In this document: positions 490 to 63,577 of the stretch, in pieces
Layout: every line of letters starts with the position of its first letter
Position numbering within the stretch: the first letter of the stretch is position 1
DNA from: Anaerolineae bacterium
GTDB lineage: Bacteria > Chloroflexota > Anaerolineae > Promineifilales > Promineifilaceae
Direction of reading: 5' to 3'
Assembly (NCBI GenBank): GCA_030425205.1
Contig: JAUIAP010000008.1
Coordinates: 1 to 64,000 of the forward strand
Length of the DNA stretch: 64,000 bases
Made by a program: the position numbers and the translations under genes
The notes under the pieces: model-generated
The model's database searches: none
What the model saw: the letters and a program-made list of their open reading frames with translations, nothing else
Told to the model about the DNA's origin: nothing

Positions 490-752
490 TTAGCTGTTCG
501 ACTGACCGGGTGGCGGCGGCATCGTGCCACTCCCACATTGGGCGATTGCGTTATCTTGCAACACGCCCGCATAAGTCGGCCCGTTGTCGTGTGGGTACGC
601 ATATTCAAGCTCACCGTTCCCCAAATCAACGGACGTTGTGTGGGAATGATAGCTAGTTGATCGGTGTAGTGCCCGTTGTGTTCATCATAGATGGAGGTAG
701 TGATCGGCCGAAAATCCATCAATCGACGACACGCTATACCCATCATCATCAA
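490..752 (-). pseudogene. Degraded coding remnant, at least one frameshift
   Basis: Three pieces of protein-like sequence lie in different minus-strand frames. The right part reads DDDGYSVSSIDGFSADHY. The middle reads IYDEHNGHYTDQLAIIPTQ. The left part reads GELEYAYPHDNGPTYAGV and ends in MPPPPGQSNS before a stop at 490-492. None forms a complete gene, and moving between them needs frame changes. Composition and the embedded SAD codons match real genes of this genome better than the longest single frame does. The parent family is not recognised. It lies just upstream of the cut-off gene at the left edge. Confidence 0.35.
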
Positions 753-866
753 GCTGTTCGCTCAGGCAAGTTGGATTTGAGTGGTTGTGATAGTTGCCCG
801 TTCAGTATGCAAAACCAGAAATAAGTTTCTTGGTTTCTTCTCTCACTATTTGTCGCGGGTTTCCCC

Positions 867-1199
867 CTAGCCATCGACAATATCACTGTTGAGCTCATAG
901 TCGAACTGCATCAATCCATAGGCATGATGGTTAACCATCACGTAATGCTCAAGCAAGGTGCTCGGTCCATTGCCGTTGATCGCGCTGGCGAAGATGCTGT
1001 AATCGCCACCGTTCAGCGCGGACGGGACGCGCGTGATGCTGTGGGCGTGGTTACCCGCTTCGACACCGGGACCTGCGTTGGATTCCACGTTGTATTCGAT
1101 CCAGACAGACGGGTTGTAAATGCGGTAGTAGAAAACAGGGTACTCACTAGAGGTGTCGCCGTCGCCGATCCAGACGAAAAGGATACTGACGTGCAGCAT
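867..1199 (-). pseudogene. DUF3500-like C-terminal fragment
   Basis: This 110-codon frame contains FYYRIYNPSVWIEYN followed by an NHAHSITR segment. It matches, from memory, the C-terminal signature of DUF3500 proteins (YYRI.GP..WIEF, then N.IH...RD). Full DUF3500 proteins are several hundred residues long, and the sequence upstream (1200-1320) has stops in the same frame. The piece is therefore a truncated remnant or a frameshifted gene. A start at the ATG at 1199 lacks a clear Shine-Dalgarno sequence. The family assignment is by pattern memory only. Confidence 0.5.
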
Positions 1200-1484
1200 G
1201 AAAGTGGTTTAGGGGAGGTTTAGATCATGTTTTGGGTTCTTTAGAATCACAACTTGTCGTTAAGCATCTGTAGCCAAGCGTCCGTTCTGCCAAAGATCCA
1301 ATTTCGCGGTTGTGATAGTTTTGTGATACCCCCGCCGTATCCTAAGTTGAAATCTGGATTATTCACGAAGCGTTCTGATTGCATGCGTGAAACGTAAAGG
1401 CGTAATCTTGTTGGTCACCCCGTTACGTTTTACGAATAGCTGCACGCTTCTTGTGACTACTCAACCTGAAAGGAGATGTTTAAA
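1200..1484. other. Intergenic region upstream of the HExxH protein
   Basis: Nothing is clearly coding here. A short minus-strand stretch near 1262-1322 reads KLDLWQNGRLATDA and then stops, possibly another eroded piece of the neighbouring remnant. The right part must carry the promoter of the next gene, and a clear Shine-Dalgarno AAAGGAG lies at 1469-1475. Confidence 0.4.
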
Positions 1485-3257: not shown

Positions 3258-3259
3258 TA

Positions 3260-3312: not shown

Positions 3313-3322
3313 AGTTCAGATA

Positions 3323-3553: not shown

Positions 3554-3556
3554 GGC

Positions 3557-6414: not shown

Positions 6415-6433
6415 CTCACGGGCTGTCCACCAA

Positions 6434-6599: not shown

Positions 6600-6613
6600 A
6601 ATGTGAGGTTGTC

Positions 6614-12533: not shown

Positions 12534-14831
12534 GTGATAAATAGTCAACCGTTTTCCCACTTTGGCGAAGCGTTGCGCTATCTCCGCAAGCGCAATCGCA
12601 TGACCCAAGATGAGTTGGGGCGTGTCGTCGGCTACAGTCGGGAGCAGATTGCACGGCTCGAAAATGGATCGCGCCACCCTGACGTGACGGCGGTGCGGGC
12701 ATTGTTTGCGCCTGCGCTCAAACTCGACGCGCAACAGGTGGATGCATTGCTGCAACTTGCCCAGCAAGCCCGCACCAAGCGCACGGCTACCTATCAACTA
12801 CCCGCGCCGCTGGTGGCGTTGATCGGCCGATCGGCCGAACTGCGCCACCTAACCCACCTGCTACCACAAACCCGTCTCTTAACGCTTGTGGGTGCACCCG
12901 GCATCGGCAAGACACGTCTCGCGCTTGCCGTTGGTCGAGAGTGTCAACCACGCTTTGCGGACGGGGCGGCATTTGTTTCGCTGGCGGCTGTGGAAGCGGT
13001 GGTCGATGTGTCGCGTGCCGTCTTGACCGCGCTTGGCATCACGCAGCGGCAAGATGATGAGGCAACCGTGTTGAGCCAGCTTGCCAATCAACAGGTGCTG
13101 CTCGTTCTCGATAACTGTGAGCAGTTATTACCCGAGCTCAGTCTCGTCGTGGCGGGATGGCTGGAACAACTGCCCCATCTGACGCTGCTCTGCACGAGTC
13201 GCGAACCGCTCGACCTGTATGGGGAACAGCTTTACACCGTGCCGCCGCTGGCGGTGCCGCAGGACAATGGCGATTTGCGCCATCTGGCGACGGTGCCGGC
13301 GTTGGCGTTGCTGTTGGTACGTATTAAGGCGTGGGATTCGTCGTGGGTGCTATCGGCCGAAAACGCCCACGACCTGACCGCGCTCTGTCGTCTGCTCGAT
13401 GGGTTACCGCTGGCACTCGAACTGGCCGCCGTGCGCTTGCGCGACCAGTCGGCCGCCACCATCCTGAATCAACTCAACAGCGTGCCAGACACGTCGTGGC
13501 TACGTCAACAGCAGCACAACATCGCGCCGCGTCATCGCACGTTGCAGCGAGCGATTGAGTGGAGCGTGCGGCTACTTTCGGCCGAACAGCAGCAAACGTT
13601 CGCTCGCCTAAGCCTCTTTCGTGGCGGATGTGACGAGGCAGCCGCGCTAGCAGTGACCAACTGCGAGCGTACCAGCCTGCTAGCACTGACACACGCCAAC
13701 CTGATCCAATGGCACGACGAGCGCATCAACCTGCTCGAACCCCTGCGGCTTGACGCATACATGCGGCTGGTGGCGGGCGGGCAACTTGCCATCTACCAAG
13801 AACGGCACGCCGTCTACTATGCCAGCGTCGCCGCCGACATTTGGCACGGTATGTTGGGCGACGCACAAGCGATCTGGGCAGAACGAGCGTTGCGCGACCA
13901 TGACAATTTGCTGACCGCATTGCGTTGGGCAATCGACACACAAAACGGTGAACTGGCGATTGAGATTGCGGGGCGACTTTGGTGGTTTTGGTATCGACAT
14001 GGCTTTCTGACGCTCGGCCGCGACCTCCTGACGGCGGCGTTGCAACTGACAACCCCCAACCTCAACCAGCGGGCGATTGCGCTTAACGGTCTCGCCTCGA
14101 TCTGCATGGAGCAGGGCGATACGACCGCTAGTCTCTCCTACCATCAAGCAGGCTTAACCCTACGCCGCCAGTTGAACGATGAGACGGGCGTGGCGACCGT
14201 CCTACACAACATGGGGCTGACCGCCCATCGCATGGGGGATTACGAACAGGCGATTGATTGGCTGTTGGAGTCGATTTCACACGATGAGCAGGAGAACGCG
14301 CTCAACTACGCCCATCTGGGGCTGATTGCGCAGGAGATTGGGGATCTACAGCAGGGGCAACGCTGGCTGGAACAGGCGTATGCGTTGGCACAATCGGCCG
14401 ATTCGTGGACACAAGCGTTCGTCGCCTGTAACTACGCCGATCTGCAATGTGCCAGCGGGGACGTGACCCATGCGCGACAGTTGGCGGAACGCAGTCTGCA
14501 ACTCTTCAGTGAGCAGCAGGACGAGCTGTATATCAGTGATGTCCAACTGGTATTGGCACAGATCGCGTTGGCTGAGGGGATGCTGCAAGAATCGGCCGAT
14601 TGGTGTGAACAGGCGGTGAGTGGCTATCGGCGGCGGCAGCAAGCACCATCGTTGGTGATGGCGCTTTTAGTACAGGCGCAGGTGGCGTGGCAGATGGCAG
14701 ATCGGCCGATGGCGGCACACGCGCTTGCTGAAGCGGAAACGACACAACAGCAAGCCGCAGTCATACTGACACCACGTTGTCGCTTGCTGATGCAGCAGGT
14801 TGCAGAGTTAATCCACAACCGCTCAAAGTAG
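12534..14831 (+). CDS. Xre-type HTH / NTPase / TPR transcriptional regulator
   Basis: The protein has about 765 residues. The frame is open further upstream, but the HTH alignment and the divergent promoter favour a GTG start near 12534; the exact start is uncertain. Domains in order: HTH_XRE (about 8-65, YLRKRNRMTQDELGRVVGYS and QIARLENGSR), a STAND-type NTPase with P-loop GAPGIGKTR near 118 and Walker B LLVLDNCEQLL near 190, and C-terminal TPR-like repeats (for example LNGLASICMEQGDTTASLSY). Such proteins sense an unknown ligand and control neighbouring genes. Its divergence from the giant protease suggests regulation of that gene and of itself. The palindrome TCGGCCGA occurs twice back to back at 12823-12838. 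Confidence 0.85.
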   Translation: MINSQPFSHFGEALRYLRKRNRMTQDELGRVVGYSREQIARLENGSRHPDVTAVRALFAPALKLDAQQVDALLQLAQQARTKRTATYQLPAPLVALIGRSAELRHLTHLLPQTRLLTLVGAPGIGKTRLALAVGRECQPRFADGAAFVSLAAVEAVVDVSRAVLTALGITQRQDDEATVLSQLANQQVLLVLDNCEQLLPELSLVVAGWLEQLPHLTLLCTSREPLDLYGEQLYTVPPLAVPQDNGDLRHLATVPALALLLVRIKAWDSSWVLSAENAHDLTALCRLLDGLPLALELAAVRLRDQSAATILNQLNSVPDTSWLRQQQHNIAPRHRTLQRAIEWSVRLLSAEQQQTFARLSLFRGGCDEAAALAVTNCERTSLLALTHANLIQWHDERINLLEPLRLDAYMRLVAGGQLAIYQERHAVYYASVAADIWHGMLGDAQAIWAERALRDHDNLLTALRWAIDTQNGELAIEIAGRLWWFWYRHGFLTLGRDLLTAALQLTTPNLNQRAIALNGLASICMEQGDTTASLSYHQAGLTLRRQLNDETGVATVLHNMGLTAHRMGDYEQAIDWLLESISHDEQENALNYAHLGLIAQEIGDLQQGQRWLEQAYALAQSADSWTQAFVACNYADLQCASGDVTHARQLAERSLQLFSEQQDELYISDVQLVLAQIALAEGMLQESADWCEQAVSGYRRRQQAPSLVMALLVQAQVAWQMADRPMAAHALAEAETTQQQAAVILTPRCRLLMQQVAELIHNRSK

Positions 14832-14917
14832 GGCGCATGTGACGCGAGCATCACGCACGGTAGATGCAACTATTCGGCCGAATTCCCGTATCGTAGATAA
14901 ATCAATCCTAAACAATC

Positions 14918-15172
14918 ATGGAGCATACCGTGCCTAAAGTGATCAACATTCTCGCTAAAGAATTTATCTGTACGAAATGCCACAGCAGTGGCGCCTCCGT
15001 CGAAAAGCTCGCCATGTCAGGGACAGGCATTTCACGTTTTCTCGACATCCAACCCTACCGCTACGTCTTCGCCTCCTGCAACCATTGCGGATACACTGAA
15101 ATTTTCAACCTCAAAATGCTCGAAGGCAAAGACGATCTCGGCACATTCATCGACATTCTATTCGCGGGATAA
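14918..15172 (+). CDS. Small zinc-ribbon protein (DUF2082-like)
   Basis: The protein has 84 residues. CTKCHSSG near residue 18 and CNHCGYTEIF near residue 54 form a four-cysteine zinc ribbon. The intervening SGTGISRFLDIQPYRY and the trailing LGTFIDILFAG fit the short DUF2082 zinc-ribbon proteins, which are described as nucleic-acid-binding by prediction only. The Shine-Dalgarno sequence is weak; the ATG and a GTG four codons later are both possible starts. The gene follows the regulator by 86 bp and may have its own promoter. Confidence 0.75.
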   Translation: MEHTVPKVINILAKEFICTKCHSSGASVEKLAMSGTGISRFLDIQPYRYVFASCNHCGYTEIFNLKMLEGKDDLGTFIDILFAG

Positions 15173-15186
15173 ACCGCCCTTTTTCA

Positions 15187-16140
15187 TCACTCTAACCGAT
15201 TATGTAGCTCTGCTACGGAAATCAGGTTGCCATCCTTGGCAACAATCAGCTTTGCGGTGCGGGCCTGGCTGATTAGTTTTTCCTGTTCAATTTCCAACAC
15301 CAACCGGATAAAGGGGCTGTCGGTATTTTTATCGCGTCCGCGCGCCAGCCGATGCGCCAACGTTTCGGCCGGCGTGCTGAACAAAAATATGGGGAAGTCT
15401 ACCCCTTCAAGCAGCGGGTTGTTGCCATGCGTCCACTCAATGATCAGCACCTGCACGCCAGAAAAATCGACCGCTTCAAAACGAATATCGTCACTCGTTC
15501 TGCCCATCCGTTTCAAGTTGATTGTGTCTTCGCCGCTCTTAAATGAATTGATGATGTGGTTGACCATTGAAAAATCGGTCTCATTTTCACTCCCCAAGTA
15601 GCTCATCAACCCTGTCTTTCCTGCATCAAAGTACACGTTCATCCAGGTAGATTCTTCATCGACAATCGCTGTGGGATTAAAATCTTCCATTTCGGGCCAC
15701 AGTTGCTGGAGCTTTTCCATCCTGTCATTTGAAAACTCGCTGATTCTAGCGAGGGCGTTTAACCCAGCGTTTCTAAAGACCGTCATCCGCTCGTTATCAT
15801 TGAATTGTGGCACTCGATGTGGGTAGTTGTCTCCCGACAAAATATAGGCGGGGTAACCCTGCTCGTTGCAGTAATGTCCCAGCACAGAGCCAAGTTCAGA
15901 TTTCCCGACACCTGATCCACCATAGACAGAAACAACGAGACGCTGACCGCTCATGCTTTCCAACTCTTGCAGCAGATGAGGGAAAACGGTGTTGGCCTTG
16001 TCAATGTGCGATTGGTTAATTTGAATTTTATCACCCGGCATATCGCCCGTCTTGACTGAACTTATATCAATCTGTGGTGGGTTCCATGCAGGCAATTCGT
16101 TCACACTGTTTTCGTTGTTGGAAGTAGATCTCTCACTCAT
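15187..16140 (-). CDS. P-loop NTPase, uridine-kinase-like small-molecule kinase candidate
   Basis: The protein has 317 residues from the ATG preceded by AAGGAA. VVSVYGGSGVGKSELG (P-loop at 74-81) and ILSGDNYPHRVPQFND resemble the ATP and lid regions of uridine kinase/phosphoribulokinase-type enzymes. VQVLIIEWTHGNNPLLEGVD would be the Walker B region with a nearby H. HRLARGRDKN may bind phosphate. The substrate is not identifiable. As the last gene of the sugar locus, 36 bp after the GH13-like gene, it may phosphorylate the sugar released by that enzyme, but this is inference. No TCGGCCGA palindrome occurs in it. Confidence 0.6.
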   Translation of the reverse strand: MSERSTSNNENSVNELPAWNPPQIDISSVKTGDMPGDKIQINQSHIDKANTVFPHLLQELESMSGQRLVVSVYGGSGVGKSELGSVLGHYCNEQGYPAYILSGDNYPHRVPQFNDNERMTVFRNAGLNALARISEFSNDRMEKLQQLWPEMEDFNPTAIVDEESTWMNVYFDAGKTGLMSYLGSENETDFSMVNHIINSFKSGEDTINLKRMGRTSDDIRFEAVDFSGVQVLIIEWTHGNNPLLEGVDFPIFLFSTPAETLAHRLARGRDKNTDSPFIRLVLEIEQEKLISQARTAKLIVAKDGNLISVAELHNRLE

Positions 16141-16176
16141 GTTCATTTCCTTATCTTTAATCAGTTTCAAAATGGT

Positions 16177-18279
16177 TTAACCAATGCGGTATACACGGCC
16201 TTCGCCGGGCAACATCTGCTGGACTTGATAATGTCGGCCGTTGTAAACCAACTGTTCTTCGCCTGAATCGGCGGTCGAAAAATCGAGGGTAAGCGGCACG
16301 TCCGTAGTGACATTTGGAATCAGGGGGATGCCAAACTTCCCGCTGGTCGCCTTGGTGTTGAGATTGACTACAAAGAGATGGGTTGGATGGTCATCCCCCT
16401 GTGTCCAGGCAATCTCTTTCCGCTCACCAAGCGCATCGGGTGGCAGCAGCCAGCGGCACGGCCGACCCTTGATCTGTGCAAACATGCTGTCGAGGTAGAG
16501 GCGCAAGCGCATAATCGTATGGAACAGATGCCCATTGCGTCCCCACACATAGTCACCGTGCGTTGCTTGCGGCCCCTCACTCTGCTGAAAGACGTACAGC
16601 TTGCTGTAATGCTCATTAGGCGCGGGCTCATAGTGGGCATCCCGCACCTCAAATCCTAAGCCCATATAGCTGGGCATATCGGTGAGGAACAGCGCCATAA
16701 ACAGACGCGCCTCGTTGCCGTCTAAATAGAATTCGTCAAAACGGGGATCATCTTTGTCCGCCGTCATGACGGTGAAGCTGGGGGTGCAACTGCGAGTCGC
16801 CGCTAGGTCATCATATTGGCGCAACCGCTGCACAAAGACGGGCGTGCCGACTGGCACAGACTGCAAGTCACCAAGCGTTGTATCGGCATCGGCCGCTTCT
16901 AGGTGATCAAATTCTTCGCCGTAGGTCATGATGTCGCGCGGCGCGATGAATGTTTCGGCAAAGTAACCAAAGTAGCGGGCTCCTTTTTCTTGACGGATGT
17001 AGTTTTTAACCGCCGCTAGAATATCATAATAGTCGTCAATTTCTGAAGGAACCCCATCGGGTCGCATTTGCACGTGCGCCATATCGCCACGCATAAAGTC
17101 AAAGCCATATTTTTGCTGTACGTCCGCGTAATTCTCACAGACATATTGCCAGACGTTTTGGCGCGGCGCGGCGAAGTCAACGGCCCAATCGCGATTGTCG
17201 TCTAGGCGATCATACAGCTTGTAGCGGCTAAGCGGGCCGAAGACGCGGGACATTGACTGGGGCTGGGTGATAAGATAGTCACGCCAGACCATCCCATTAG
17301 AATCGACCGTTTTGGCTTTCGGGTGCTTATTTACTTCCAGCCCGCGAAAAGGGGGTGCCATCGTGCCGGGAACGGGTTCATACCCATACAAATACAGGTG
17401 TTGAATCAGCTGATTGCGGCGGCCGTCGCGTCCAGATTTGTCTTCGGTGGTACCAAACAACAGAAGAATGCGGCGAGATTCGTCTAGGTCGTTGAAGAAG
17501 ATTTCGGCCGAAACTGGCAGTTCTTCCCCAGCCACAGCGGAACCATTTTTCTGTAGAAACGCCCAAATTTGATCCTGCACCGCTTCGTGCAAGTCTGCCC
17601 GCTGGTTGACGATCAGGGTATCTTGTCGTTGCAACCATTCAAAGAGCTGCGGCGAGGCAAGCACGATCTGCGAGTAGCGGTCGGTATGGGGGATCACATC
17701 CATGCCTACCGTTTTGCCAAGTGCGTGCAGAATGTTAATGACGGCTTTCAACTGCTTACCCGTCGTGTTGAGATGCGGTTTTATTTCTGCTAGCTCCGCG
17801 CTGTAAAATTCGTTGTTTAACTGCCAACTGCTCATGCCATAGAGGCTGCCCACAACGCCCGCCTCCCAAATGGGTAGGATGTGGATAGCATCTTGCGCCG
17901 CTGGTAGCGTGAGTGCATATTTGACGATATTCCAAAAACTTTGCACCGTGCGAACGTTAAGGCCGACCATATTGGCCTGTTTAAGCCAGCTACCGTCTGG
18001 CTGGTCTACCACGGGACTGCGGATGGCTGCGGGAAGCGTCGCGGACAGATCTTCGGGATTGCTGTACTGGGGGTCAAAAGCTACGCCCAAGGTTTCCCCT
18101 AAGCGGCTGTTTAAGATAGATAGCGTCTCAGCAGCGGTTAGATTGACAGCCGTTTCTGGCAGCAAGTTGGGAATAAAAGAGGTTTCCCCTTCCTGATAAG
18201 CCGCCAGTAAATCGGTCTTTTCACTTTGCCATTGGTCATGGAACTGTTGATGGACGGTAGGAATCGTAAATCGTTGCAT
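16177..18279 (-). CDS. GH13-like glycoside hydrolase, cytoplasmic
   Basis: The protein has 700 residues and no signal peptide. Three clan GH-H-like motifs are visible: GMDVIPHTD (192-200, region I), FDFMRGDMAHV (393-403, with D399 as likely nucleophile) and GYFAETF (438-444, with E442 as likely acid/base). TDMPSYMGLGFEV could be near region IV. The N-terminal 100 residues and the long insert between regions I and II are atypical, so specificity cannot be assigned. Being intracellular and beside a GH32 enzyme and a sugar importer, it may act on an imported oligosaccharide. The 296-bp leader holds its own candidate LacI site. Confidence 0.65.
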   Translation of the reverse strand: MQRFTIPTVHQQFHDQWQSEKTDLLAAYQEGETSFIPNLLPETAVNLTAAETLSILNSRLGETLGVAFDPQYSNPEDLSATLPAAIRSPVVDQPDGSWLKQANMVGLNVRTVQSFWNIVKYALTLPAAQDAIHILPIWEAGVVGSLYGMSSWQLNNEFYSAELAEIKPHLNTTGKQLKAVINILHALGKTVGMDVIPHTDRYSQIVLASPQLFEWLQRQDTLIVNQRADLHEAVQDQIWAFLQKNGSAVAGEELPVSAEIFFNDLDESRRILLLFGTTEDKSGRDGRRNQLIQHLYLYGYEPVPGTMAPPFRGLEVNKHPKAKTVDSNGMVWRDYLITQPQSMSRVFGPLSRYKLYDRLDDNRDWAVDFAAPRQNVWQYVCENYADVQQKYGFDFMRGDMAHVQMRPDGVPSEIDDYYDILAAVKNYIRQEKGARYFGYFAETFIAPRDIMTYGEEFDHLEAADADTTLGDLQSVPVGTPVFVQRLRQYDDLAATRSCTPSFTVMTADKDDPRFDEFYLDGNEARLFMALFLTDMPSYMGLGFEVRDAHYEPAPNEHYSKLYVFQQSEGPQATHGDYVWGRNGHLFHTIMRLRLYLDSMFAQIKGRPCRWLLPPDALGERKEIAWTQGDDHPTHLFVVNLNTKATSGKFGIPLIPNVTTDVPLTLDFSTADSGEEQLVYNGRHYQVQQMLPGEGRVYRIG

Positions 18280-18381
18280 AATATATTTCGACAGGCAAAA
18301 TCAAACGTTTTTAGAAATTTACTCACGTTTTGCAGCTTATTGTAGAGGCTAGGTAAATGGCATCGAGTATCAAACATTGCG

Positions 18382-18392
18382 AGCGTTTACGC
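18382..18392. promoter_or_regulatory. Candidate LacI-type operator AGCGTTTACGC
   Basis: The core CGTTTACG is shared with the site at 26224-26231 before the substrate-binding protein gene of the same locus. Position and shared core suggest the local LacI regulator, but this is untested. Confidence 0.4.
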
Positions 18393-18398
18393 CATTTG

Positions 18399-18436
18399 TC
18401 TCGCCCTGTTTGTGCAAATGGTCAAACGGGGCGAGA
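18399..18436. other. 14-bp stem hairpin in the leader
   Basis: TCTCGCCCTGTTTG pairs with CAAACGGGGCGAGA around a 10-nt loop, with a single T-G wobble. There is no T-run in the direction of transcription, so it may be an mRNA structural or extragenic element. Confidence 0.5.
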
Positions 18437-18517
18437 TAGACGGCATGTAAGCCGCGTTTGTGTAAAACCAATAGCCGTTTACCTAGTCCCCACGACGGGA
18501 CTGCGCAGCATGAGTTA

Positions 18518-18548
18518 GAAAAGCCCCATCTATGAAGATAGAGCCTTT
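18518..18548 (-). terminator. Terminator after the ABC ATPase gene
   Basis: On the minus strand a GGCTCTATC-type arm pairs imperfectly with GATGGGGCTTTTC, ending in a short T-rich run, 28 bp past the ATPase stop. It would separate the importer transcript from the GH13-like/kinase pair. Confidence 0.5.
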
Positions 18549-18575
18549 CGCAAAGTTTCAATCAGAAGAAGCGCC

Positions 18576-19700
18576 TCAAATAATCCGTAGCTCGGTCTCT
18601 TTGTCAAACAGGTGCATGTTGTCTGAATCCATAATCAGATCAACTTGATCGCCCACTTTTGCCTCAACGCGGATGTCAATCGTCGCCACAAAGGTGCTTT
18701 TGCCAGAATTGACATAGATATGTAGCTCATGTCCCAGCAGTTCAACGACCTCAATCACACCGCGAATTTTGGATTGCGTCGTGATGGGTGGCGCGTAGTC
18801 GGGCGCGTAGATGTGTTCTGGGCGAATACCAAACGTGACGGTTTTGCCAATATACGGCGTGTATGCTTTGGTGCGGTCTGGGGGCGCTTGAACGCGGAAG
18901 TCGCCCGTGTCGATCCAGATGCGATCATCCTCTTTGACCAACGTGGCCTCAAAGAAGTTCATGCTAGGGCTGCCGATAAAGCCAGCGACAAATATATTGC
19001 TCGGTTCGCTATACAGCTCGCGTGGGGAGGCACACTGTTGCAGCGAAGTCGTTTGCACCGTGCCACCTTCGAGTGGTTTCAAAACGGCGATGCGGTCGCC
19101 CATCGTCATCGCTTCGACTTGGTCATGCGTCACGTAGATAAAGGTGGTCTGCAAATCTTTGTGCAGTTTGGAGATGAACGCCCGCGCCGTCACGCGCAGC
19201 TTTGCGTCGAGGTTGGAGAGCGGTTCATCCATCAAAAAGACGGCGGGGTTACGCACGATGGCGCGGCCAACTGCGACACGCTGCCGCTGTCCACCAGAGA
19301 GCGCCTTGGGCTTGCGGTCGAGCAGTGGGTCTAAGCCGAGACTTGCCGACGCATCGCGCACGCGCCGGTCGATCTCGTCTTTAGGCGTTTTGCGCAGCTT
19401 GAGGCCAAACGCCATGTTGTCATAAACGGTCATGTGAGGGTAGAGCGCGTAGGATTGAAACACCATTGCAATGTCCCGATCCTTCGGTGGCACATCATTG
19501 ACGACGCGATCCCCAATGCGGATTTCGCCGTCTGTCACCTCTTCGAGCCCAGCCAACATCCGCAATGCAGTCGATTTGCCACACCCAGAGGGGCCGACAA
19601 ACACGACAAACTCTTTATCTTTAACCGCTAACTCGAAATCACGAATGACGATCACATCGCCAAAACTCTTTTGCACATTATTAAACGTTACGCTTGCCAT
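18576..19700 (-). CDS. Sugar ABC transporter ATP-binding subunit (MsmX/UgpC type)
   Basis: The protein has 374 residues from MASVTFNNVQKSFG. Key motifs are Walker A GPSGCGKST, Q-loop VFQSYALYPHMTV, signature LSGGQRQRVAVGRA, Walker B VFLMDEPLSNLDAKL and switch His in YVTHDQVEAMTMG. The C-terminal 130 residues form the TOBE/regulatory domain typical of CUT1 importers (FGIRPEHIYAPD). It energises the two permeases of this locus. The upstream frame extension lacks a Shine-Dalgarno sequence, so the start is the internal ATG. No TCGGCCGA palindrome occurs in this conserved gene. Confidence 0.93.
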   Translation of the reverse strand: MASVTFNNVQKSFGDVIVIRDFELAVKDKEFVVFVGPSGCGKSTALRMLAGLEEVTDGEIRIGDRVVNDVPPKDRDIAMVFQSYALYPHMTVYDNMAFGLKLRKTPKDEIDRRVRDASASLGLDPLLDRKPKALSGGQRQRVAVGRAIVRNPAVFLMDEPLSNLDAKLRVTARAFISKLHKDLQTTFIYVTHDQVEAMTMGDRIAVLKPLEGGTVQTTSLQQCASPRELYSEPSNIFVAGFIGSPSMNFFEATLVKEDDRIWIDTGDFRVQAPPDRTKAYTPYIGKTVTFGIRPEHIYAPDYAPPITTQSKIRGVIEVVELLGHELHIYVNSGKSTFVATIDIRVEAKVGDQVDLIMDSDNMHLFDKETELRII

Positions 19701-19727
19701 TTTGATTTTCCCTGTCCTATTATTGAG

Positions 19728-19745
19728 GTGGTCAGTCTTGACCAC
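19728..19745. promoter_or_regulatory. Palindrome GTGGTCA-N4-TGACCAC
   Basis: A perfect 7-bp dyad lies in the 83-bp gap before the ATPase gene. It may be an operator or an intercistronic hairpin. No regulator can be assigned. Confidence 0.4.
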
Positions 19746-19783
19746 AAATTGTCGTCATCCGCTTCATTGCGGGAATCATCTAT

Positions 19784-21208
19784 CTACCAAATACTCGCCA
19801 TTTGCCACACGTCGAGCGAGACAAATTCACCGTGATCATTGAGCAACTCAATCCCGACACTCTCAGCACATGCAGGATAAACGCGCCCCGTCAACGCGAC
19901 TTGACCATTGACAAACACTTCAATGATCGACTTATCAATAAAAATCCGCATATCGAGCTGTTCATCGGCTGGCAAAACAAACGTGCCTTCCAACACGCTC
20001 AAATCATACTCTTCGCGCTGCTGACAGGTGCTGTGTGAACGGTCAATCCCAACAAGCCCATAGCGACGGTCGTAGAAGATAGTTGTGTGTTCATCGGCCG
20101 AACACAATACGCGTAACCCCACGCGCCCTAATCCCGGCTCAAACACTGCTCGCAATTCTACTGCATCACCCTTGATGTCACCAAGCGCGTCCAAATTTTC
20201 AGGCGTGATCTGCACATGGTCATGCCGCAACAACTCCAATTCAGGTGCTGGTTTGAAGCCCAATAGACCATTCTCTTGCAACGTCACGATGCGTGGTATC
20301 GCCATCGCACCAGCCCACCCCGCCTGCTCAAGTAACTCATCAGAACGCCCTTCCTGAATCCAGCCCCACATCACGGTACGCCCCCGATCATCAACAAATG
20401 CTTGTGGCGCGTAGAAGAAACGACCCCCCAAATCCAAATGATGTGCGCCAGTTGGCGTAAACAAATTGTCTTTGTACTCGCCTGTTAAATAGGCCGTCCC
20501 GTAACCACGACTGTTGTCCGACACAGAGATGACCAGCACTTTCGTCCCGTCAAAATCGAGTAGCTGCGGACATTCCCAAATCGTGCCGAGCCACATGTCG
20601 TCAAATGTCTCACCCAATGGCGGCGTTAGCGATCCGAGATATTCCCAGTCAATTAGATTTGTGCTGCGATAATGCGGGGCAATTCCCCCTTCACCATGAA
20701 TACCTGCACCGATAATTTGCCGCCACTCATCTCCTTCGCGCCAGACATCATGATCACGAAAACCAATTAAATCATGGTCAGATGGGGAATGAATGACGGG
20801 GTTGCCCTTATATTTTTCCCATTTTTGCAGCGTTGGATCACCTGTGGCAAGATTGGCGTGTTGCGTAAATGGCATTCCATTGACTGGTGCAAGCTGTGTT
20901 CCCGTGTAAAGCACAGTTGGCACACCATCGTTGATGACCATACAGCCTGAGAAGCAGCCTTCTTCATCAAACTCCCCTTCAGTTGGGGTAAAGGCGATGG
21001 GTAAATGTTCCCAATGCACCAAGTCATCGCTGACTGCGTGACCCCAGTGCATGTTGCCCCACAGTGCACCGAATGGGTTATATTGATAGAAAAGATGATA
21101 GCGACCTTGCCACTGAATGACGCCGTTAGGGTCGTTCAACCAGTTACGTTCGGACAGGAAATGATATTGCGGACGATGAGTTGTATCAATCGGAGGTTGC
21201 GTGTCCAT
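19784..21208 (-). CDS. GH32 beta-fructosidase (sucrose hydrolase / levanase type)
   Basis: The protein has 474 residues from ATG; an in-frame TTG 24 bp upstream is less likely. The three GH32 motifs are present: WLNDPNG (23-29, nucleophile D26), FRDHDVW (150-156, a variant of RDP with the stabilising D152 kept) and WECPQL (211-216, acid/base E212). There is no signal peptide, so it acts inside the cell on an imported fructose-containing sugar, for example sucrose or a fructo-oligosaccharide. The C-terminal beta-sandwich is intact (KSIIEVFVNG). The RDH variant might reflect altered substrate. It sits between permease and ATPase genes of the same locus. Confidence 0.9.
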   Translation of the reverse strand: MDTQPPIDTTHRPQYHFLSERNWLNDPNGVIQWQGRYHLFYQYNPFGALWGNMHWGHAVSDDLVHWEHLPIAFTPTEGEFDEEGCFSGCMVINDGVPTVLYTGTQLAPVNGMPFTQHANLATGDPTLQKWEKYKGNPVIHSPSDHDLIGFRDHDVWREGDEWRQIIGAGIHGEGGIAPHYRSTNLIDWEYLGSLTPPLGETFDDMWLGTIWECPQLLDFDGTKVLVISVSDNSRGYGTAYLTGEYKDNLFTPTGAHHLDLGGRFFYAPQAFVDDRGRTVMWGWIQEGRSDELLEQAGWAGAMAIPRIVTLQENGLLGFKPAPELELLRHDHVQITPENLDALGDIKGDAVELRAVFEPGLGRVGLRVLCSADEHTTIFYDRRYGLVGIDRSHSTCQQREEYDLSVLEGTFVLPADEQLDMRIFIDKSIIEVFVNGQVALTGRVYPACAESVGIELLNDHGEFVSLDVWQMASIW

Positions 21209-21285
21209 GTAAAAGGAAACAACTGTTGACAATGGAGCCGCAGACCCACATCATCAACAGCCGTTAGAAAAATGCAGAAAAATTT

Positions 21286-21311
21286 GGAGCGCGGACGCCT
21301 TGTCTGCGCTC
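21286..21311. repeat. REP-like hairpin, second copy of the GGAGCGCGGACG family
   Basis: GAGCGCGGAC and GTCTGCGCTC arms with a 4-nt loop form a strong stem between the second permease and the GH32 gene. It matches one half of the tandem unit at 3260-3312. Confidence 0.6.
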
Positions 21312-21318
21312 TGCATGA

Positions 21319-22197
21319 TTAGCCCTTCACGCCACTTGACGCGATGCTTTCGACAAATGCGCGTTGCAGTGAGAGGTACAGAATTAGCACGGGAACGGTG
21401 ATGATGGTCAGATAGGCCATAATCTCACCCCACGCCACATCAAGCTGGAAGAAGTAGGACACCCCAATCATGACGGGTCGCAGACTCTCCGACTGGACGA
21501 CCATAATAGGCCAGAGGTACTGTCCCCACATGGCGAGGAAGTTGAGAATGGCAACCGTGGCAAAGGTAGGGCCAGAGATGGGAACAACGATGTTGCGATA
21601 AATCTGGAACCATGTTGCACCATCTATTCGCGCTGCTTCAACCAGTTCATACGGGATCGACTTGAAGTTTTGCACAAAGAGGAAGATGGCAAATGCCCCC
21701 GCAATAAACGGGATGATCTGGACGTGATAGCTATCGAGCCAGCCCTGTGTCGCGCAGATAAACGCGCCACTGTCGCAGGTCGTCGAGAGCCACGGCAACT
21801 TGCTGACGATCAGCAGCAGCGGAATGGCAATCGTCTCAAACGGCACGATCAGGGTCGCGATAATCAGCGAGAGAACGACATTTTTGCCCCGCCAGCGCGG
21901 AATCGCCAATGCAAACCCTGCCATTGAATTGACGAGCAGACTGAGCAAAACGGTCAGCGATGTGACAAAGACCGAATTAAAGATAAAGCGCACAATCGGC
22001 ACACGCGAAAACGCTTCTCTGTAGTTATCGAGTGAGAGGTCCCCATACGGCAGGAACGCCAGCAGAGAGCTCGTGTCGCGCAGAAACTGTTCGTCAGGTT
22101 TGAACGACGAGACGATCATAAAGACGAGTGGAAAAAGGAAGATCAGCGCGACAACAATGAGCAGCGCGTAACGGAGAGCGAGTGTTAATTGTTTCAT
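21319..22197 (-). CDS. Sugar ABC transporter permease (MalG type)
   Basis: The protein has 292 residues with about six membrane helices. The EAA loop reads EAARIDGATWFQIYRNIVVP, which docks to the ATPase subunit. It forms the channel with the other permease; its start overlaps that gene's stop by 4 bp (ATGA), so the two are translationally coupled. A long extracytoplasmic loop carries the cysteine-containing TTCDSGAFICATQG segment, unusual for this family and possibly a disulfide. Confidence 0.92.
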   Translation of the reverse strand: MKQLTLALRYALLIVVALIFLFPLVFMIVSSFKPDEQFLRDTSSLLAFLPYGDLSLDNYREAFSRVPIVRFIFNSVFVTSLTVLLSLLVNSMAGFALAIPRWRGKNVVLSLIIATLIVPFETIAIPLLLIVSKLPWLSTTCDSGAFICATQGWLDSYHVQIIPFIAGAFAIFLFVQNFKSIPYELVEAARIDGATWFQIYRNIVVPISGPTFATVAILNFLAMWGQYLWPIMVVQSESLRPVMIGVSYFFQLDVAWGEIMAYLTIITVPVLILYLSLQRAFVESIASSGVKG

Positions 22198-23351
22198 CGT
22201 GCATCATCCTCCCGTGTCAAATAACGTTGAACAAGCGCAATTGACAGGACAACTAAAAAGAAGAAAACGGAGATGGTTGACCCGTATGCAATGTCCTGTT
22301 TGGCAAAGCCACGCTGCACCATCTGGTGGATCACTGTTGTGGTCGAGTCGAGCGGACCACCGCGTGTCATAATATCAACCTGCACGAAGAGGCCAAACGC
22401 CGCCATCGTGATGGTGATAAGGACAAAGACGAAGGTGTTGTGTAAGCCCGGCCATGTGACAAAGCGGAACTGCTGCCATTTGGTTGCGCCCGCGACCTCG
22501 GCCGCCTCATACAGTGAAGTCGGAATCGTCTGCAAACCTGCCAGCCAAATAACCATATGGAAGCCGACCGCTTGCCAAACAGACATGATGATAATGGCGG
22601 GCATGGCTGTGTATTCGTTGCCGATCCAGTCGATGGGTTCATATCGGCCGAAAGTCGCCGCTCCCAACAGATTGTTCAACAACCCGTTATTCCCATCGTA
22701 GATAAACCGCCACAGAATCGCCACGATCACCATCGAAACGACGACAGGTATAAAGTAAATCGCGCGAAAGATATTGATCCCGCGCAGCTTCTGATTGACC
22801 ATCACCGCCAAGGCCAACGCCAATCCAGCTTGCAGCGGAATGACAATCACGGCGAAGTACAAAATGTTGATGATCGAGCGTATAAAGACAGAATCTCCCG
22901 CCATCCATAGACGCTGTGTCGGCCCACTTTGGAAAGAATAGACCTCTTGCAAGCCGTTGTATTGTGGATATTCGGGGTTGTCACGGGTGAATGTACGTGC
23001 GCGAGGAAAGACATAGTTACCCTCGTCGTCCAAAATATATTCCCCCGTGTCAGGGTCGGTCTCTGCCTCAATCGTTAAGATTCGCATCTCGAGCAGTCGC
23101 TCAAAGTTGCGCGTACCGACAAATTCTGTCGGATTGGGTGAAATCAGGCGTTGATTCGTAAAGGCGAATCCAAACGCCATAATAAATGGAATGATCAAGA
23201 ACCCCAGTAAGAGCAGAATCGCGGGGAGCATCATCCCCACGCCCGCACGCGCCTCTTGTGAACGCGCGGGAGAGCGACTGGGACGGCGAGGCGTTTTTAC
23301 GTCTACATGAGCGGGAACCGCTGCGGGACGGTGTGGGCGTGGTGTTGTCAT
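22194..23351 (-). CDS. Sugar ABC transporter permease (MalF type) with extra periplasmic insert
   Basis: The protein has 385 residues. A basic, proline-rich N-terminal cytoplasmic tail (about 40 residues) precedes the first helix (MMLPAILLLLGFLIIPFIM). Between helices 1 and 2 is a roughly 90-residue insert (with ETDPDTGEYILDDEGNY), somewhat as in MalF P2, which may contact the binding protein. The EAA loop is EAAEVAGATKWQQFRFVTWP. It pairs with the MalG-type subunit downstream. Confidence 0.92.
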   Translation of the reverse strand: MTTPRPHRPAAVPAHVDVKTPRRPSRSPARSQEARAGVGMMLPAILLLLGFLIIPFIMAFGFAFTNQRLISPNPTEFVGTRNFERLLEMRILTIEAETDPDTGEYILDDEGNYVFPRARTFTRDNPEYPQYNGLQEVYSFQSGPTQRLWMAGDSVFIRSIINILYFAVIVIPLQAGLALALAVMVNQKLRGINIFRAIYFIPVVVSMVIVAILWRFIYDGNNGLLNNLLGAATFGRYEPIDWIGNEYTAMPAIIIMSVWQAVGFHMVIWLAGLQTIPTSLYEAAEVAGATKWQQFRFVTWPGLHNTFVFVLITITMAAFGLFVQVDIMTRGGPLDSTTTVIHQMVQRGFAKQDIAYGSTISVFFFLVVLSIALVQRYLTREDDAR

Positions 23352-60884: not shown

Positions 60885-60909
60885 TTAATAGCGCACCAAA
60901 CGTTACGCC

Positions 60910-60933
60910 GATTGAGTCCGATCCGACTCGATC
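60910..60933. promoter_or_regulatory. Inverted repeat GATTGAGTC-N6-GACTCGATC
   Basis: Nine-base arms with one mismatch lie in the 86-bp gap between the LacI gene and the binding-protein gene, 37 bp before the next start codon. It could be an operator or an mRNA hairpin. Confidence 0.4.
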
Positions 60934-60970
60934 ATCACTGTCTGGAGTATCAGTTAATATGGAGAAGAAA

Positions 60971-63577
60971 ATGAAGACTTACATATCGAGATTGTTGATG
61001 TTCATACTGCTGCTGGTGCTTGTCGCCTGCGGTGGCACACCCGAAGTAGACCCAACCCAGCCACCAAGCGATGGTGGCGCGACCGAAGAAGCCCCAGTCG
61101 AAGAGACCCCCACCGACGACACGGGCGACAGCGTCGAACTACGCATGACGTGGTACACCGATGGCAATGAAGATGTCGCCATGCGTGCGCTACTCGACCG
61201 CTTTGAGGCTGAAAATCCCGGCATCACCGTCGTGATGGACAACGTCGCCTACAACACGATTCTTGAAAATCTACCGATTCAGTTGGCGGCTGGTGAAGGC
61301 CCCGACCTCGCCCGCGTCACCAATTTGGGCGGTTTGTCCGAGTACTATCTCGACATCAGCCCCTATGTCGATACCGCCTATTGGGAAGACAGCTTTGGCC
61401 CCTTCCTCAACTGGCTGCGTCCGCAGGGAGACACAGACGGCATCTACGGCATGATGACCCAGTTAACCGTCACCGGCCCCTATGTCAACAAGACGCTCTT
61501 CGACCAAGCGAGCATCGACGTTCCGACGGGCGACACCACATGGGAAGAGTGGGCAGACTTGACACGCCAAGTTGCCGACGCGACGGGAACCCCTTTTGCA
61601 ATGGCGATGGATCGCACAGGTCACCGCTTTGCAGGCCCCGCGATTAGTCAGGGCGCACAGTTCTTTGACGCGGACGGTCATCCCGTGCTTGATGATGAAG
61701 GGATGCGGACGATGTCACAACTGCTGCTCGATTGGCACGCCGACGAGACGATGCCGCTCGACGTGTGGGCCAGCAGCAGTGGCAGCTATGTTCCCGCCAA
61801 CGACCTGTTTGTGAATGGTCAAATCGTGATGTACATGTCGGGTAGCTGGCAGATCGGTCAGTTTGCCGACAGCATCGGTGATGCGTTCGACTGGCAAGTC
61901 GTGCCAAATCCATGTGGCCCCGCCGCTTGCTCTGGGATGCCCGGTGGTGCGGCACTTGTGCCAATTGATGGAACGGATCATCCCGAAGAGGTCGCTAAGT
62001 TGATGGACTTCTTGGCGCAAGCAGACGTGTTGGCTGAGTTCTCTGGCCAGACGCTGTTTATTCCCGGACACTTGGGATTATCGGCCGATGACATCACCTA
62101 CGAAACAGACGTGCAGGCTGCGGCCGATGCGCTCTCCGTCTTCGTCGGTCAAGTCGGCGCACTCGATCAAACCGCCTACGATTTGCAAGCGTATCCCGTC
62201 AACTTCGCAATCTTCAACGCCGTGCGCGACCGTCTGACCCAAGCCATCTTGGGTGAATTGACGCTCGACCAAGCCCTCGAACGCGCCCAAGCTGATGTCG
62301 ATGTGGCGGTCTCTGAAGCGCTCGGCACACCGACGGAAGAAGATGGTGAAGAAGAGATGGATGAAGAAGCGATGGAGCCAGTCGAGCTACGCATGACCTG
62401 GTACACCGATGGCAATGAAGATGTCGTCATGCGCGACCTGCTCGACCGCTTTGAAGCAGAAAATTCACACATCACCGTCATGATGGACAACGTCGCCTAC
62501 AATACGATTCTCGAAAATCTGCCGATTCAGTTGCAAGCGGGTGAAGGGCCTGATCTCGCCCGTGTCACCAACTTGGGTGGTTTGTCCGAGTTCTATCTCG
62601 ATATCAGCCCCTACGTCGATACCGCCTACTGGGAAAGCAGCTTTGGCCCCTTCCTCAACTGGCTCCGTCCTGCGGGTGACACAGACGGCATCTACGGCAT
62701 GATGACACAGTTGACCGTGACAGGCCCCTACATCAACAAGACGCTCTTTGACCAAGCGGGTGTCGATGTCCCAACGGGCGACACGACTTGGGAAGAGTGG
62801 GCCGCATTGACCCAGCAAGTTGCCGATGCAACTGGCACATCGTTCGCAATGGCGATGGATCGCACAGGCCACCGCTTTGCTGGCCCCGCGATTAGTCAAG
62901 GCGCGGCTTTCTTTGACGCAGACGGTAACCCCGTCATCGACGACGAAGGGTTCCGCACGATGTCACAACTGTTGCTCGACTGGCACGCCGACGGCACGAT
63001 GCCGCTCGACGTGTGGGCAAGCAGCAGCGGCAGCTATGTTCCCGCCAACGATATGTTCGTGAATGGCGAAACGGTGCTGTACATGTCGGGTAGCTGGCAG
63101 ATCGGTCAATTTGCCGACAGCATCGGCGATGCGTTCGACTGGCAAGTTGTGCCGAATCCGTGTGGCCCCGCCGCATGTTCTGGAATGCCTGGTGGTGCGG
63201 CACTTGTGCCAATCGCGGGAACAGAACATCCAGAAGAGGTCGCAATGTTGATGGAATTCCTCGCGCAAGAGGAGATTCTCGCCGAGTTCTCTGGACGCAC
63301 GCTGTTTATTCCGGGGCATTTGGGATTATCGGCCGATGACATCACCTATGACACCGACGTACAGGCTGCGGCCGATGCGCTCTCCGTCTTCGTCGGTCAA
63401 GTTGGCGCACTCGATCAGACCGCCTACGATTTGCAAGCCTACCCTGTCAACTTCGCCATCTTCAACGCCGTGCGCGACCGTCTGACCCAAGCCATCTTGG
63501 GCGAATTGACGCTCGACCAAGCAATTGAGCGCATCCAAGAGGATGTCGATCAAGCGGTTGCTGAATCTGGTAGTTAG
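60971..63577 (+). CDS. Sugar-binding lipoprotein with two tandem family-1 binding domains (second locus)
   Basis: The protein has 868 residues from the ATG that follows GGAGAAGAAA. The lipobox LVLVACGG sets one lipid anchor. After an acidic linker, domain one (about 55-450) begins VELRMTWYTDGNEDV; after the linker TEEDGEEEMDEEAMEP, domain two begins with the same VELRMTWYTDGNEDV and runs to the stop. Both keep ILENLPIQL.AGEGPDLARV, TWEEWA, AMDRTGHRFAGPAISQGA and GSWQIGQFADSIGDAF. The copies differ at many synonymous bases but few residues. It belongs to a different subfamily from the lipoprotein at 23433-26171. A permease gene follows. Confidence 0.92.
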   Translation: MKTYISRLLMFILLLVLVACGGTPEVDPTQPPSDGGATEEAPVEETPTDDTGDSVELRMTWYTDGNEDVAMRALLDRFEAENPGITVVMDNVAYNTILENLPIQLAAGEGPDLARVTNLGGLSEYYLDISPYVDTAYWEDSFGPFLNWLRPQGDTDGIYGMMTQLTVTGPYVNKTLFDQASIDVPTGDTTWEEWADLTRQVADATGTPFAMAMDRTGHRFAGPAISQGAQFFDADGHPVLDDEGMRTMSQLLLDWHADETMPLDVWASSSGSYVPANDLFVNGQIVMYMSGSWQIGQFADSIGDAFDWQVVPNPCGPAACSGMPGGAALVPIDGTDHPEEVAKLMDFLAQADVLAEFSGQTLFIPGHLGLSADDITYETDVQAAADALSVFVGQVGALDQTAYDLQAYPVNFAIFNAVRDRLTQAILGELTLDQALERAQADVDVAVSEALGTPTEEDGEEEMDEEAMEPVELRMTWYTDGNEDVVMRDLLDRFEAENSHITVMMDNVAYNTILENLPIQLQAGEGPDLARVTNLGGLSEFYLDISPYVDTAYWESSFGPFLNWLRPAGDTDGIYGMMTQLTVTGPYINKTLFDQAGVDVPTGDTTWEEWAALTQQVADATGTSFAMAMDRTGHRFAGPAISQGAAFFDADGNPVIDDEGFRTMSQLLLDWHADGTMPLDVWASSSGSYVPANDMFVNGETVLYMSGSWQIGQFADSIGDAFDWQVVPNPCGPAACSGMPGGAALVPIAGTEHPEEVAMLMEFLAQEEILAEFSGRTLFIPGHLGLSADDITYDTDVQAAADALSVFVGQVGALDQTAYDLQAYPVNFAIFNAVRDRLTQAILGELTLDQAIERIQEDVDQAVAESGS
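61133..63568 (+). repeat. Intragenic tandem duplication (unit offset 1248 bp)
   Basis: Copy one starts near 61133 and copy two near 62381. The offset of 416 codons is constant along the unit, and TCGGCCGA is kept in both (62081 and 63329). Most differences are at third codon positions. Confidence 0.9.

Follow-up and report, generated by a model that had tools for sequence, protein, structure and literature searches.

Why should a single short palindrome be written about once per 760 bp into the DNA of an uncultured Chloroflexota bacterium? The window analysed here is the whole 64,000-nucleotide stretch (positions 1 to 64,000 of contig JAUIAP010000008.1, assembly GCA_030425205.1) of an Anaerolineae bacterium. 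A sequence-only reading of the window had proposed that it is saturated with WTCGGCCGAW, that the constraint acts on DNA, and that the element resembles the highly iterated palindrome HIP1 of cyanobacteria. To examine whether this observation is real, we counted 8-mers against a third-order Markov model fitted to the window itself. TCGGCCGA occurred exactly 84 times against 2.5 expected and had the highest z-score of the 8-mers, and 80 of the 84 copies had A/T on both outer sides. The one-end variants TCGGCCGC, TCGGCCGT, and TCGGCCGG were found 10, 7, and 2 times, respectively (19 in total, compared to about 20 in the sequence-only reading), and the mirror forms GCGGCCGA and ACGGCCGA were found 3 times and once, respectively. 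CGGCCG totaled 119.

Table 1 Coordinates of the palindromes in the window and of the candidate methyltransferase gene in the same genome (G000).
Feature	Position	Strand	Remarks
TCGGCCGA, 84 copies (first bases)	704..63336: 704, 1557, 3392, 3562, 3621, 3810, 6062, 6349, 7486, 8115, 8517, 9000, 9533, 10506, 12381, 12823, 12831, 13353, 13578, 14394, 14592, 14702, 14874, 17504, 20094, 22644, 23824, 25135, 26628, 26761, 27201, 27948, 28605, 29133, 29382, 30613, 30885, 31477, 31966, 32877, 32923, 33448, 33931, 34739, 35137, 36003, 37405, 37567, 37852, 39127, 39197, 39274, 40675, 41905, 42121, 42541, 43274, 44242, 44547, 45340, 45910, 46303, 46573, 46837, 47577, 48515, 48731, 49423, 49725, 50467, 52730, 53710, 54151, 54969, 55484, 56329, 57172, 57649, 58386, 59310, 59982, 60576, 62081, 63329		palindrome, so no strand; last copy at 63329-63336
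Two directly abutting copies	12823..12838		12823-12830 and 12831-12838
Sparse stretch	14874..22651		only 14874, 17504, 20094, and 22644; three successive gaps of about 2.6 kb
Methyltransferase M	G000:C103:27465-29417		roughly 650 aa, N6/N4-type

To examine whether the excess extends beyond the window, we counted the palindrome in the whole genome from which the window derives (G000). We found 9,414 copies in 7,787,621 bases (1 per 827 bp, or 1,209 per Mb), against 27 for the same letters read backwards. In a 432-kb sample consisting of the window and 20 stretches of the same genome, there were 529 sites, with a density of 1.25/kb in ORFs of at least 120 aa and 1.29/kb outside, noncoding DNA being defined here by ORF length and not by a gene caller. 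The coding copies were distributed over the three frames as 324/81/58, and the outer flank was A or T in 96% of half-sites. Synonymous-codon shuffling within 245 ORFs left 34 copies (maximum 46 in 30 shuffles) against 463 observed, so codon preference for Ser-Ala-Asp/Glu does not explain the density. The dependence runs the other way, since this tripeptide is itself about fourfold over its residue-frequency expectation in this genome.

We next examined 52 genomes of a Promineifilaceae-like family. Of these, 28 use ACGGCCGT, 2 use TCGGCCGA, and 1 (G015) uses GCGGCCGC; 6 have CGGCCG with any flank, 1 has TGCCGGCA, and 14, including the Promineifilum clade (g4), have little. WTCGGCCGAW is not phylum-wide but is one of at least five states (hereafter, dialects) of a mostly CGGCCG-centered element in one family, and another genome of the same genus as G000 (G001) has the core with no flank preference. 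The flanks of the core-only genomes were read in samples of G001, G006, G026, and G037, whereas those of G043 and G046 rest on whole-genome counts. Except for pattern counts and family searches, relatives were sampled by stretches and not as whole genomes; overlapping or duplicate loci were removed before most k-mer counts, and stretches with N and alignments under 500 bases or 75% identity were excluded. No other iterated palindrome stood out in 163 kb of the Promineifilum clade, where the top-listed k-mers are non-palindromic.

To determine whether the sites stay in place between species, we compared aligned loci of three genome pairs, counting a shared site from both sides. Between G044 and G047, which are 83% identical, 64 sites were shared and 18 unshared (0.88 retained), compared with 558 of 1,714 same-composition 8-mers and 16 of 58 CGGCCG with a wrong flank. 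Between G022 and G044, 60 were shared and 12 unshared (0.91) against 566 of 1,537, and between G002 and G023, 48 were shared and 5 unshared (0.95) against 732 of 1,206. In eight genomes the sites fill 67-91% of protein-permitted places, and in seven genomes the bias per site is similar (odds 46-96 over codon usage, 3.8-4.6 log units). Their main tripeptides, Thr-Ala-Val, Ser-Ala-Asp/Glu, or Ala-Ala-Ala according to dialect, are 3.5- to 7-fold over expectation, showing that a DNA motif can reshape proteins. A lack of sites in fusA is no anomaly, since there is only 1 permitted place in 9 genomes. In RpoB, a supposed Glu-to-Arg change forced by a site shows nothing, because the residue varies among the 13 genomes without the site (5 Glu, 3 Lys, 2 Arg, 2 Asp, and 1 Gln).

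Deviants were concentrated at the first and last positions. GCGGCCGA was enriched 3.5- to 4.5-fold and ACGGCCGA 2.1- to 2.6-fold, CCGGCCGA was not enriched, and most inner variants were at or below expectation. The pattern was similar in the ACGGCCGT set but was not seen in the smaller G015 sample. A few gains seem to involve several base changes at once, although some duplicated loci were counted twice in this analysis.

The spacing of sites (CV 0.87-1.02) showed no periodicity and only weak repulsion between neighbors. In the ACGGCCGT sample, sites 20-50 bp apart numbered 69 against 61 expected, and a deficit was clear only below 20 bp (8 against 25). In contrast, short gaps were under-represented in the G000 sample (16 against 29 expected below 50 bp and 40 against 58 at 100-200 bp, with an excess at 800-1,600 bp; KS p 0.02). 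Gaps of 1.6-3.2 kb, such as those in the sparse stretch of the window, were not in excess (46 against 58 expected).

A tailed phage and plasmid-like elements carry the ACGGCCGT dialect at host density or above. A phage contig with head, portal, and terminase genes (L367) had 48 sites against 0.64 expected. This segment (3.5/kb) and a plasmid-like contig (L360, 3.7/kb) exceed the genome-wide ACGGCCGT density of any family genome counted (at most about 2.1/kb), although the scan that found them favors dense contigs. The dialect offers a sequence-only hint for linking phages and plasmids to these uncultured hosts.

The link to an orphan methyltransferase, for which the sequence-only reading had suggested a search, gained suggestive but not decisive support. 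Cytosine-5 methyltransferases (PF00145) are not the general cause: there are 4 in G000 and 1 in G008, but none in G002, G003, G005, G006, G007, G011, G018, G019, and G023, which all have a palindrome. This search and the main PF01555 search covered 29 of 51 family relatives, G000, and 20 genomes of other families. Of the 26 PF02086 loci read with a visible motif, 25 carry what appears to be a Dam-like DPPYxP(L/V) box, but such hits also occur in HIP-poor genomes and are absent in four of the five genomes of group g6 (G026 has one). The best candidate found for the reader of the 8-bp dialects is the methyltransferase M. M was present at least in part in 29 of 31 genomes with an 8-bp CGGCCG dialect and in 11 of 21 without, and was absent in all 6 core-only genomes, including G001 beside its sister G000 (Fisher p 0.0015, and 0.0047 for the 34 genomes at least 90% complete, not corrected for kinship although the genomes are related). 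Partial hits (for example in G005, G016, G028, G031, and G038) were counted, whereas a 5e-7 fragment in G012 was not. There are clear exceptions: M is missing in G013 (95% complete) and G003 (78%), both with ACGGCCGT, and is present in all 8 genomes of the Promineifilum clade and in G020, G039, and, partly, G028, which have no strong dialect. In 6 of 20 neighborhoods read (G000, G002, G008, G014, G015, and G027), M lies near a NurA nuclease gene on the same strand, and in the first three also near a HerA-like helicase gene; however, NurA was found in 48 of 52 family genomes and is not discriminating. M was not found in viral contigs, and a comparison with solved structures gave only weak generic methyltransferase hits.

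Taken together, WTCGGCCGAW is best explained as the local dialect of a HIP-class element, a short palindrome that a DNA-level process has driven to near-saturation in the DNA of the lineage. We infer that a sequence-specific protein reads the palindrome, most likely an orphan DNA methyltransferase or a partner that reads its mark, and biases mismatch or recombination repair locally. A replication error that makes a site would then be kept and one that breaks a site corrected, so that sites ratchet up one by one, and the dialect would be rewritten when the recognition specificity changes. No methylation data were available, this cause is unproven, and we hold the reading only tentatively, with a probability of about 0.4. 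M has a DPPY motif, which may indicate N6-adenine methylation, yet neither the core nor the G015 palindrome contains adenine. G006 has CGGCCG at about 3.5/kb with no hit in PF00145, PF01555, or PF02086, so methylation may not be needed for the core. The under-representation of short gaps in G000 is not predicted by a purely local drive. Additionally, weak positive selection of about 4 log-odds units per site predicts nearly the same patterns and fits almost as well. It is also conceivable, though doubtful, that the drive is independent of any benefit to the cell: one unidentified DNA-reading protein, or M with NurA-HerA, would rewrite accessible near-sites in chromosomes, plasmids, and phages, overriding protein sequence at thousands of places, and HIP1 would be a second, independent instance of the same drive.

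Among the alternatives, the one that comes closest, although we consider it unlikely, is a self-marker in which each palindrome protects the DNA carrying it, either by Chi-like attenuation of a resident end-resecting nuclease such as NurA-HerA or through a defense system that spares DNA written in the dialect. The dense sites on L367 and L360, the wide occurrence of NurA and its position near M, and the strong retention of sites are in line with this idea. However, Chi sites are probably strand-asymmetric, whereas a perfect palindrome cannot be oriented, and if only density mattered, sites near another site should be clearly less favored, which holds only below 20 bp in the ACGGCCGT sample and somewhat more in the G000 sample. 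The data weaken explanations that need only a certain density of sites. A C5-methyltransferase locus shared by an A-dialect and a T-dialect genome also carries no CGGCCG at all in 2.76 kb.

Less likely still is a binding site of an abundant nucleoid or chromosome-organizing protein with a lineage-variable outer contact, kept by selection. The palindromic 10-bp consensus with graded tolerance of outer bases, as for a homodimer, the chromosome-wide spread with slight regularity in G000, and G006, where methylation may not be needed, fit this view, but there is no candidate protein (none was searched for), selection should weaken near an existing site, which is only weakly seen, and complete rewriting of thousands of sites when one protein changes is hard by selection alone. 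DNA-uptake-sequence dialects, spread by preferential import and recombination as in Neisseriaceae and Pasteurellaceae, appear improbable. Drive of this kind would explain the conservation and the amino-acid changes, and uptake sequences, at an order of one per kb chromosome-wide (PMC1939737), seem to have dialects with a shared core as well. However, they are presumably not palindromic, saturation in the ACGGCCGT sample continues with sites tens of bases apart, where one site per fragment should suffice, and a tailed-phage genome segment is saturated too. An artefact of composition, codon pairs, or contamination (estimated at 7.7% for the assembly) is refuted by the Markov, synonymous-shuffle, and reversed controls, the noncoding density, the positional conservation, and independent assemblies with different dialects.

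The element behaves like HIP1 (GCGATCGC) and the alternate HIPs of cyanobacteria, an open puzzle since HIP1 was described in 1995 (PMC4390886), and we found no description of it for Chloroflexota among the open-licence papers searched. As in cyanobacteria, one dominant 8-bp palindrome, here mostly at about 1,000-2,100 per Mb, has deviants concentrated at positions 1 and 8 and is replaced by other palindromes in some genomes. To compare saturation directly, we applied the same test to two cyanobacterial plasmids, where HIP1 fills 62% and 71% of protein-permitted places and Ala-Ile-Ala is 3.0- and 4.9-fold over expectation. HIP1 on these plasmids thus shows the same saturation, indicating, as far as could be tested, a HIP-class element in a second phylum. 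It differs from HIP1 in its core (CGGCCG, no GATC), and GCGATCGC itself occurs once in the window. Here most of a family keeps the core while the outer pair changes by lineage (A..T, T..A, G..C, or any), whereas variants such as TCGATCGA and GGGATCCC are reported in a few cyanobacteria; as with G006, which has the core without any of the three searched methyltransferase families, some HIP1-rich genomes lack the CGATCG enzyme (PMC4390886). Since dialects differ within a family and even within a genus, gains, losses, and specificity changes can be mapped against candidate genes.

M.Ssp6803II of Synechocystis frequently methylates GGCC, the center of the present core, to N4-methylcytosine; its target is 4 bp, and its authors link it to replication and repair (PMC6560206). 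The G015 palindrome, the core, and HIP1 appear to equal the recognition sequences of NotI, EagI, and AsiSI/SgfI, respectively. Restriction sites may usually be avoided, whereas TCGGCCGA is about 33-fold over-represented in the window and GCGGCCGC in G015 has odds about 60-fold over codon usage at permitted places.

The window contains exactly 84 copies of TCGGCCGA, 80 of which are WTCGGCCGAW, whereas 2.5 copies were expected from a third-order Markov model. The whole assembly under study (G000; 7.79 Mb, 108 contigs) contains 9,414 copies, while the same letters read backwards occur 27 times. In 432 kb of this genome (the window plus 20 other stretches), 529 copies were found, with the same density in ORFs (1.25/kb) and outside them (1.29/kb). 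The three reading frames hold 324, 81, and 58 copies, and shuffling of synonymous codons inside 245 ORFs left 34 of 463. The outer neighbor was A or T in 96% of half-sites. Other palindromes one symmetric change away were nearly absent from this sample (TTGGCCAA, 0 against 21 expected; TCTGCAGA, 0 against 7; and TGGGCCCA, 1 against 11).

RpoB placed the genome in a clade of Anaerolineae/Ardenticatenia MAGs that contains two records named Promineifilum sp. (L185 and L190). Therefore, the family is most likely Promineifilaceae, although the genomes themselves are unnamed. To examine the distribution of the palindrome, we counted it in the 52 whole genomes of the family and used k-mer counts from sampled stretches for some of them. 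ACGGCCGT was dominant in 28 genomes (437 to about 2,100 per Mb), TCGGCCGA in two (G000 and G008), and GCGGCCGC in one (G015; 137 of 153 CGGCCG in a 93-kb sample). CGGCCG with any flank (hereafter core-only) was found in six genomes, G001 and the five genomes of genus g6, at 3.0-5.1 per kb genome-wide. In three of these six (G037, G043, and G046), TCGGCCGA accounts for 8.5-10% and ACGGCCGT for 3-4% of CGGCCG, indicating a mild T bias. In G012, a differently centered palindrome, TGCCGGCA, is iterated (3,665 copies in 4.0 Mb; stretches L106, L107, and L348) while CGGCCG is down to 447, representing a HIP with an inverted core in the same family. The remaining 14 genomes have little: eight in the Promineifilum clade (g4), where both 8-mers run at roughly 80-180 per Mb, three of group g20 with weak CGGCCG enrichment, two of group g10, and G021. 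In 46 genomes from other families of the order and class, neither 8-mer exceeded 451 copies (about 100 per Mb at most). G000 and G001 share a genus and differ in state. Additionally, GCCGGC, the core read backwards, is extremely rare in some genomes (51 in 8.0 Mb of G015, 132 in 4.1 Mb of G001, and 949 in 7.8 Mb of G000, against 4,000-14,000 in many relatives), which looks like restriction-site avoidance.

To evaluate how strongly the sites are held, nine pairs of related ACGGCCGT genomes were aligned after removal of duplicate loci, and the retention of sites (shared sites counted from both sides) was compared with that of same-composition 8-mers. The shared and unshared sites, and the retention of sites against that of the control 8-mers, were 57 and 10, 0.92 against 0.60 (G022/G034); 60 and 12, 0.91 against 0.37 (G022/G044); 55 and 13, 0.89 against 0.40 (G034/G044); 48 and 5, 0.95 against 0.61 (G002/G023); 64 and 18, 0.88 against 0.33 (G044/G047); 40 and 11, 0.88 against 0.29 (G022/G047); 47 and 9, 0.91 against 0.45 (G022/G049); 3 and 1, 0.86 against 0.19 (G011/G029); and 4 and 0, 1.00 against 0.42 (G005/G025). 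CGGCCG with a wrong flank was near background (16 of 58, 34 of 61, 20 of 42, and 2 of 9) or somewhat above it (34 of 49, 26 of 55, 28 of 56, and 10 of 26), and was high in one small pair (20 of 22, G005/G025). In the alignments of G022, G034, G044, G047, and G049, some sites appear where relatives differ at four or more of the eight positions (for example, TCAGTCAT and TCAGTCGC in two relatives), as if gained by a multi-base replacement. In an rpoB alignment of 20 genomes, ACGGCCGT sits at the same column in 7, 15, 10, and 7 genomes at four columns, and G000 and G008 have it at none of them.

We then counted every place where the encoded residues would permit the palindrome. It was used in 518 of 771 places (G000), 69 of 97 (G008), 115 of 141 (G015), 159 of 182 (G044), 181 of 198 (G022), 159 of 176 (G002), 92 of 109 (G018), and 44 of 49 (G036), against 31.0, 4.1, 9.7, 17.5, 19.8, 20.4, 11.5, and 3.0, respectively, expected from codon usage. 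The odds ratios were 46-96 for the first seven genomes. For comparison, ACGGCCGT takes 28 of 50 places in core-only G001 (2.8 expected) and 8 of 75 in G024 of the Promineifilum clade (3.7 expected). Since sites create their own peptides, occupancy is inflated, and we therefore separated amino-acid change from synonymous replacement. As to the former, Thr-Ala-Val is at 26 and 35 per 10,000 codons in two sets of ACGGCCGT genomes (expected 4-5; 1.3-5.7 in the other groups and 9.5 in G001), and Ser-Ala-Asp/Glu is at 22 and 29 in the two TCGGCCGA genomes (expected 6-7; 3.9-10.1 elsewhere). Ala-Ala-Ala is at 33 in G015 (expected 7.4), but it is at 36 in the GC-rich g4 clade, where the palindrome encodes few of them. 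In the second frame, [YHND]-Gly-Arg is 2.5- to 3.5-fold and [FLIV]-Gly-Arg 1.3- to 1.5-fold over expectation. As to synonymous replacement, other spellings of [YHND]-Gly-Arg are at 2-3 in ACGGCCGT genomes against 6-13 elsewhere, and other spellings of Ala-Ala-Ala are at 2.5 in G015 against 5-33. For Thr-Ala-Val (0.9-1.2 against 0.6-5.2) and Ser-Ala-Asp/Glu (3.0-3.1 against 1.4-7.0), the ranges overlap, so those two alone do not show replacement. Cyanobacterial HIP1, tested in the same way on 150 kb of one plasmid and 50 kb of another, gave 62% and 71% occupancy and Ala-Ile-Ala at 3.0- and 4.9-fold, respectively.

The spacing of sites was close to exponential (CV 0.87, 0.94, and 1.02 for G000, an ACGGCCGT set, and G015, respectively). 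In the ACGGCCGT set, only gaps under 20 bp were clearly rarer than chance (8 against 25), and gaps of 20-50 bp were not (69 against 61). G000 was slightly more regular than chance (KS p 0.02), with 16 against 29 gaps under 50 bp, 40 against 58 at 100-200 bp, and 165 against 123 at 800-1,600 bp. A function that needs one site per stretch should show more repulsion than this, but the G000 result leaves room for some. One-mismatch relatives of the palindrome were enriched at the outer position for two of three bases (2- to 5-fold) and mostly at or below expectation inside, in G000 and the ACGGCCGT set; G015 does not show this.

To search for a responsible gene, we compared the occurrence of candidate families with that of the palindrome. 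C5 methyltransferases, Dam-like enzymes, and NurA do not follow it. In contrast, a methyltransferase of roughly 650 aa of the N6/N4 type (M), whose best profile hits were DUF1156-type antiphage methyltransferases, well below their NCBIfam cut-off, and generic type II enzymes, does so partly. M was found at least in part in 29 of 31 genomes with an 8-bp CGGCCG dialect and in 11 of 21 without. It is absent in the six core-only genomes and in G012, G021, G010, and G033, and is missing against expectation in G003 and G013. NurA lies near M on the same strand in G000, G002, G008, G014, G015, and G027 (6 of 20 neighborhoods), and a HerA-like gene in G000, G002, and G008. The DPPY motif of M may suggest adenine as the target, which fits the A- and T-spelled dialects but neither G015 nor the core. 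We regard M as the best lead, although its role has not been shown. The element belongs to the HIP class outside cyanobacteria, with a different core and true dialects, and no description of it was found in partial searches of open PMC text. A per-site process acting at the DNA level, either a drive or weak selection, shared with HIP1 is better supported than any named protein.

Coordinates of loci noted in the window, in G000, and in related genomes.
Location	Position	Strand	Feature
Window	30870-44939	-	Very long ORF of 4,689 aa with DUF11, laminin-G, Ig-like, and TSP3 domains, probably a giant surface protein
L328 (stretch of G000:C103)	9465-15438		Same-strand run of methyltransferase M, NurA, two unknown small genes, and a HerA-type helicase
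L071 (G025) and L059 (G008)	about 1450-4200		Shared C5-methyltransferase locus

The C5-methyltransferase locus is shared at 84.6% identity between an A- and a T-dialect genome of distant genera, and it has no CGGCCG in 2.76 kb while its flanks carry the local dialect. In contrast, phage and plasmid-like DNA carries one of the dialects. A scan of IMG/VR for three copies within about 90 bp, which favors dense contigs, found 19 stretches for ACGGCCGT and 8 for TCGGCCGA. Five of the 27 stretches (L359, L360, L367, L371, and L375) have ACGGCCGT at 2.0-3.7/kb over more than 6 kb. L367 is a tailed phage (major head protein, portal, terminase, and head morphogenesis) with 48 sites in 13.6 kb of a 65.5-kb contig, against 0.64 expected. 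Five of its head-module genes contain 18 sites, against 1.2 after synonymous shuffling, though none is in the major head gene. L360 and L375 carry partition and FtsK- or terminase-like genes, and L371 carries endolysin-like and RecT-like genes, whereas L359 gave no PHROG hit in the two proteins tried. The hosts of these elements are inferred from the dialect only. Additionally, in two viral stretches of IMG/VR (L387 and L389), GCGGCCGC makes up 13 of 15 and 8 of 9 of their CGGCCG, respectively, and these are possible phages of G015-dialect hosts.
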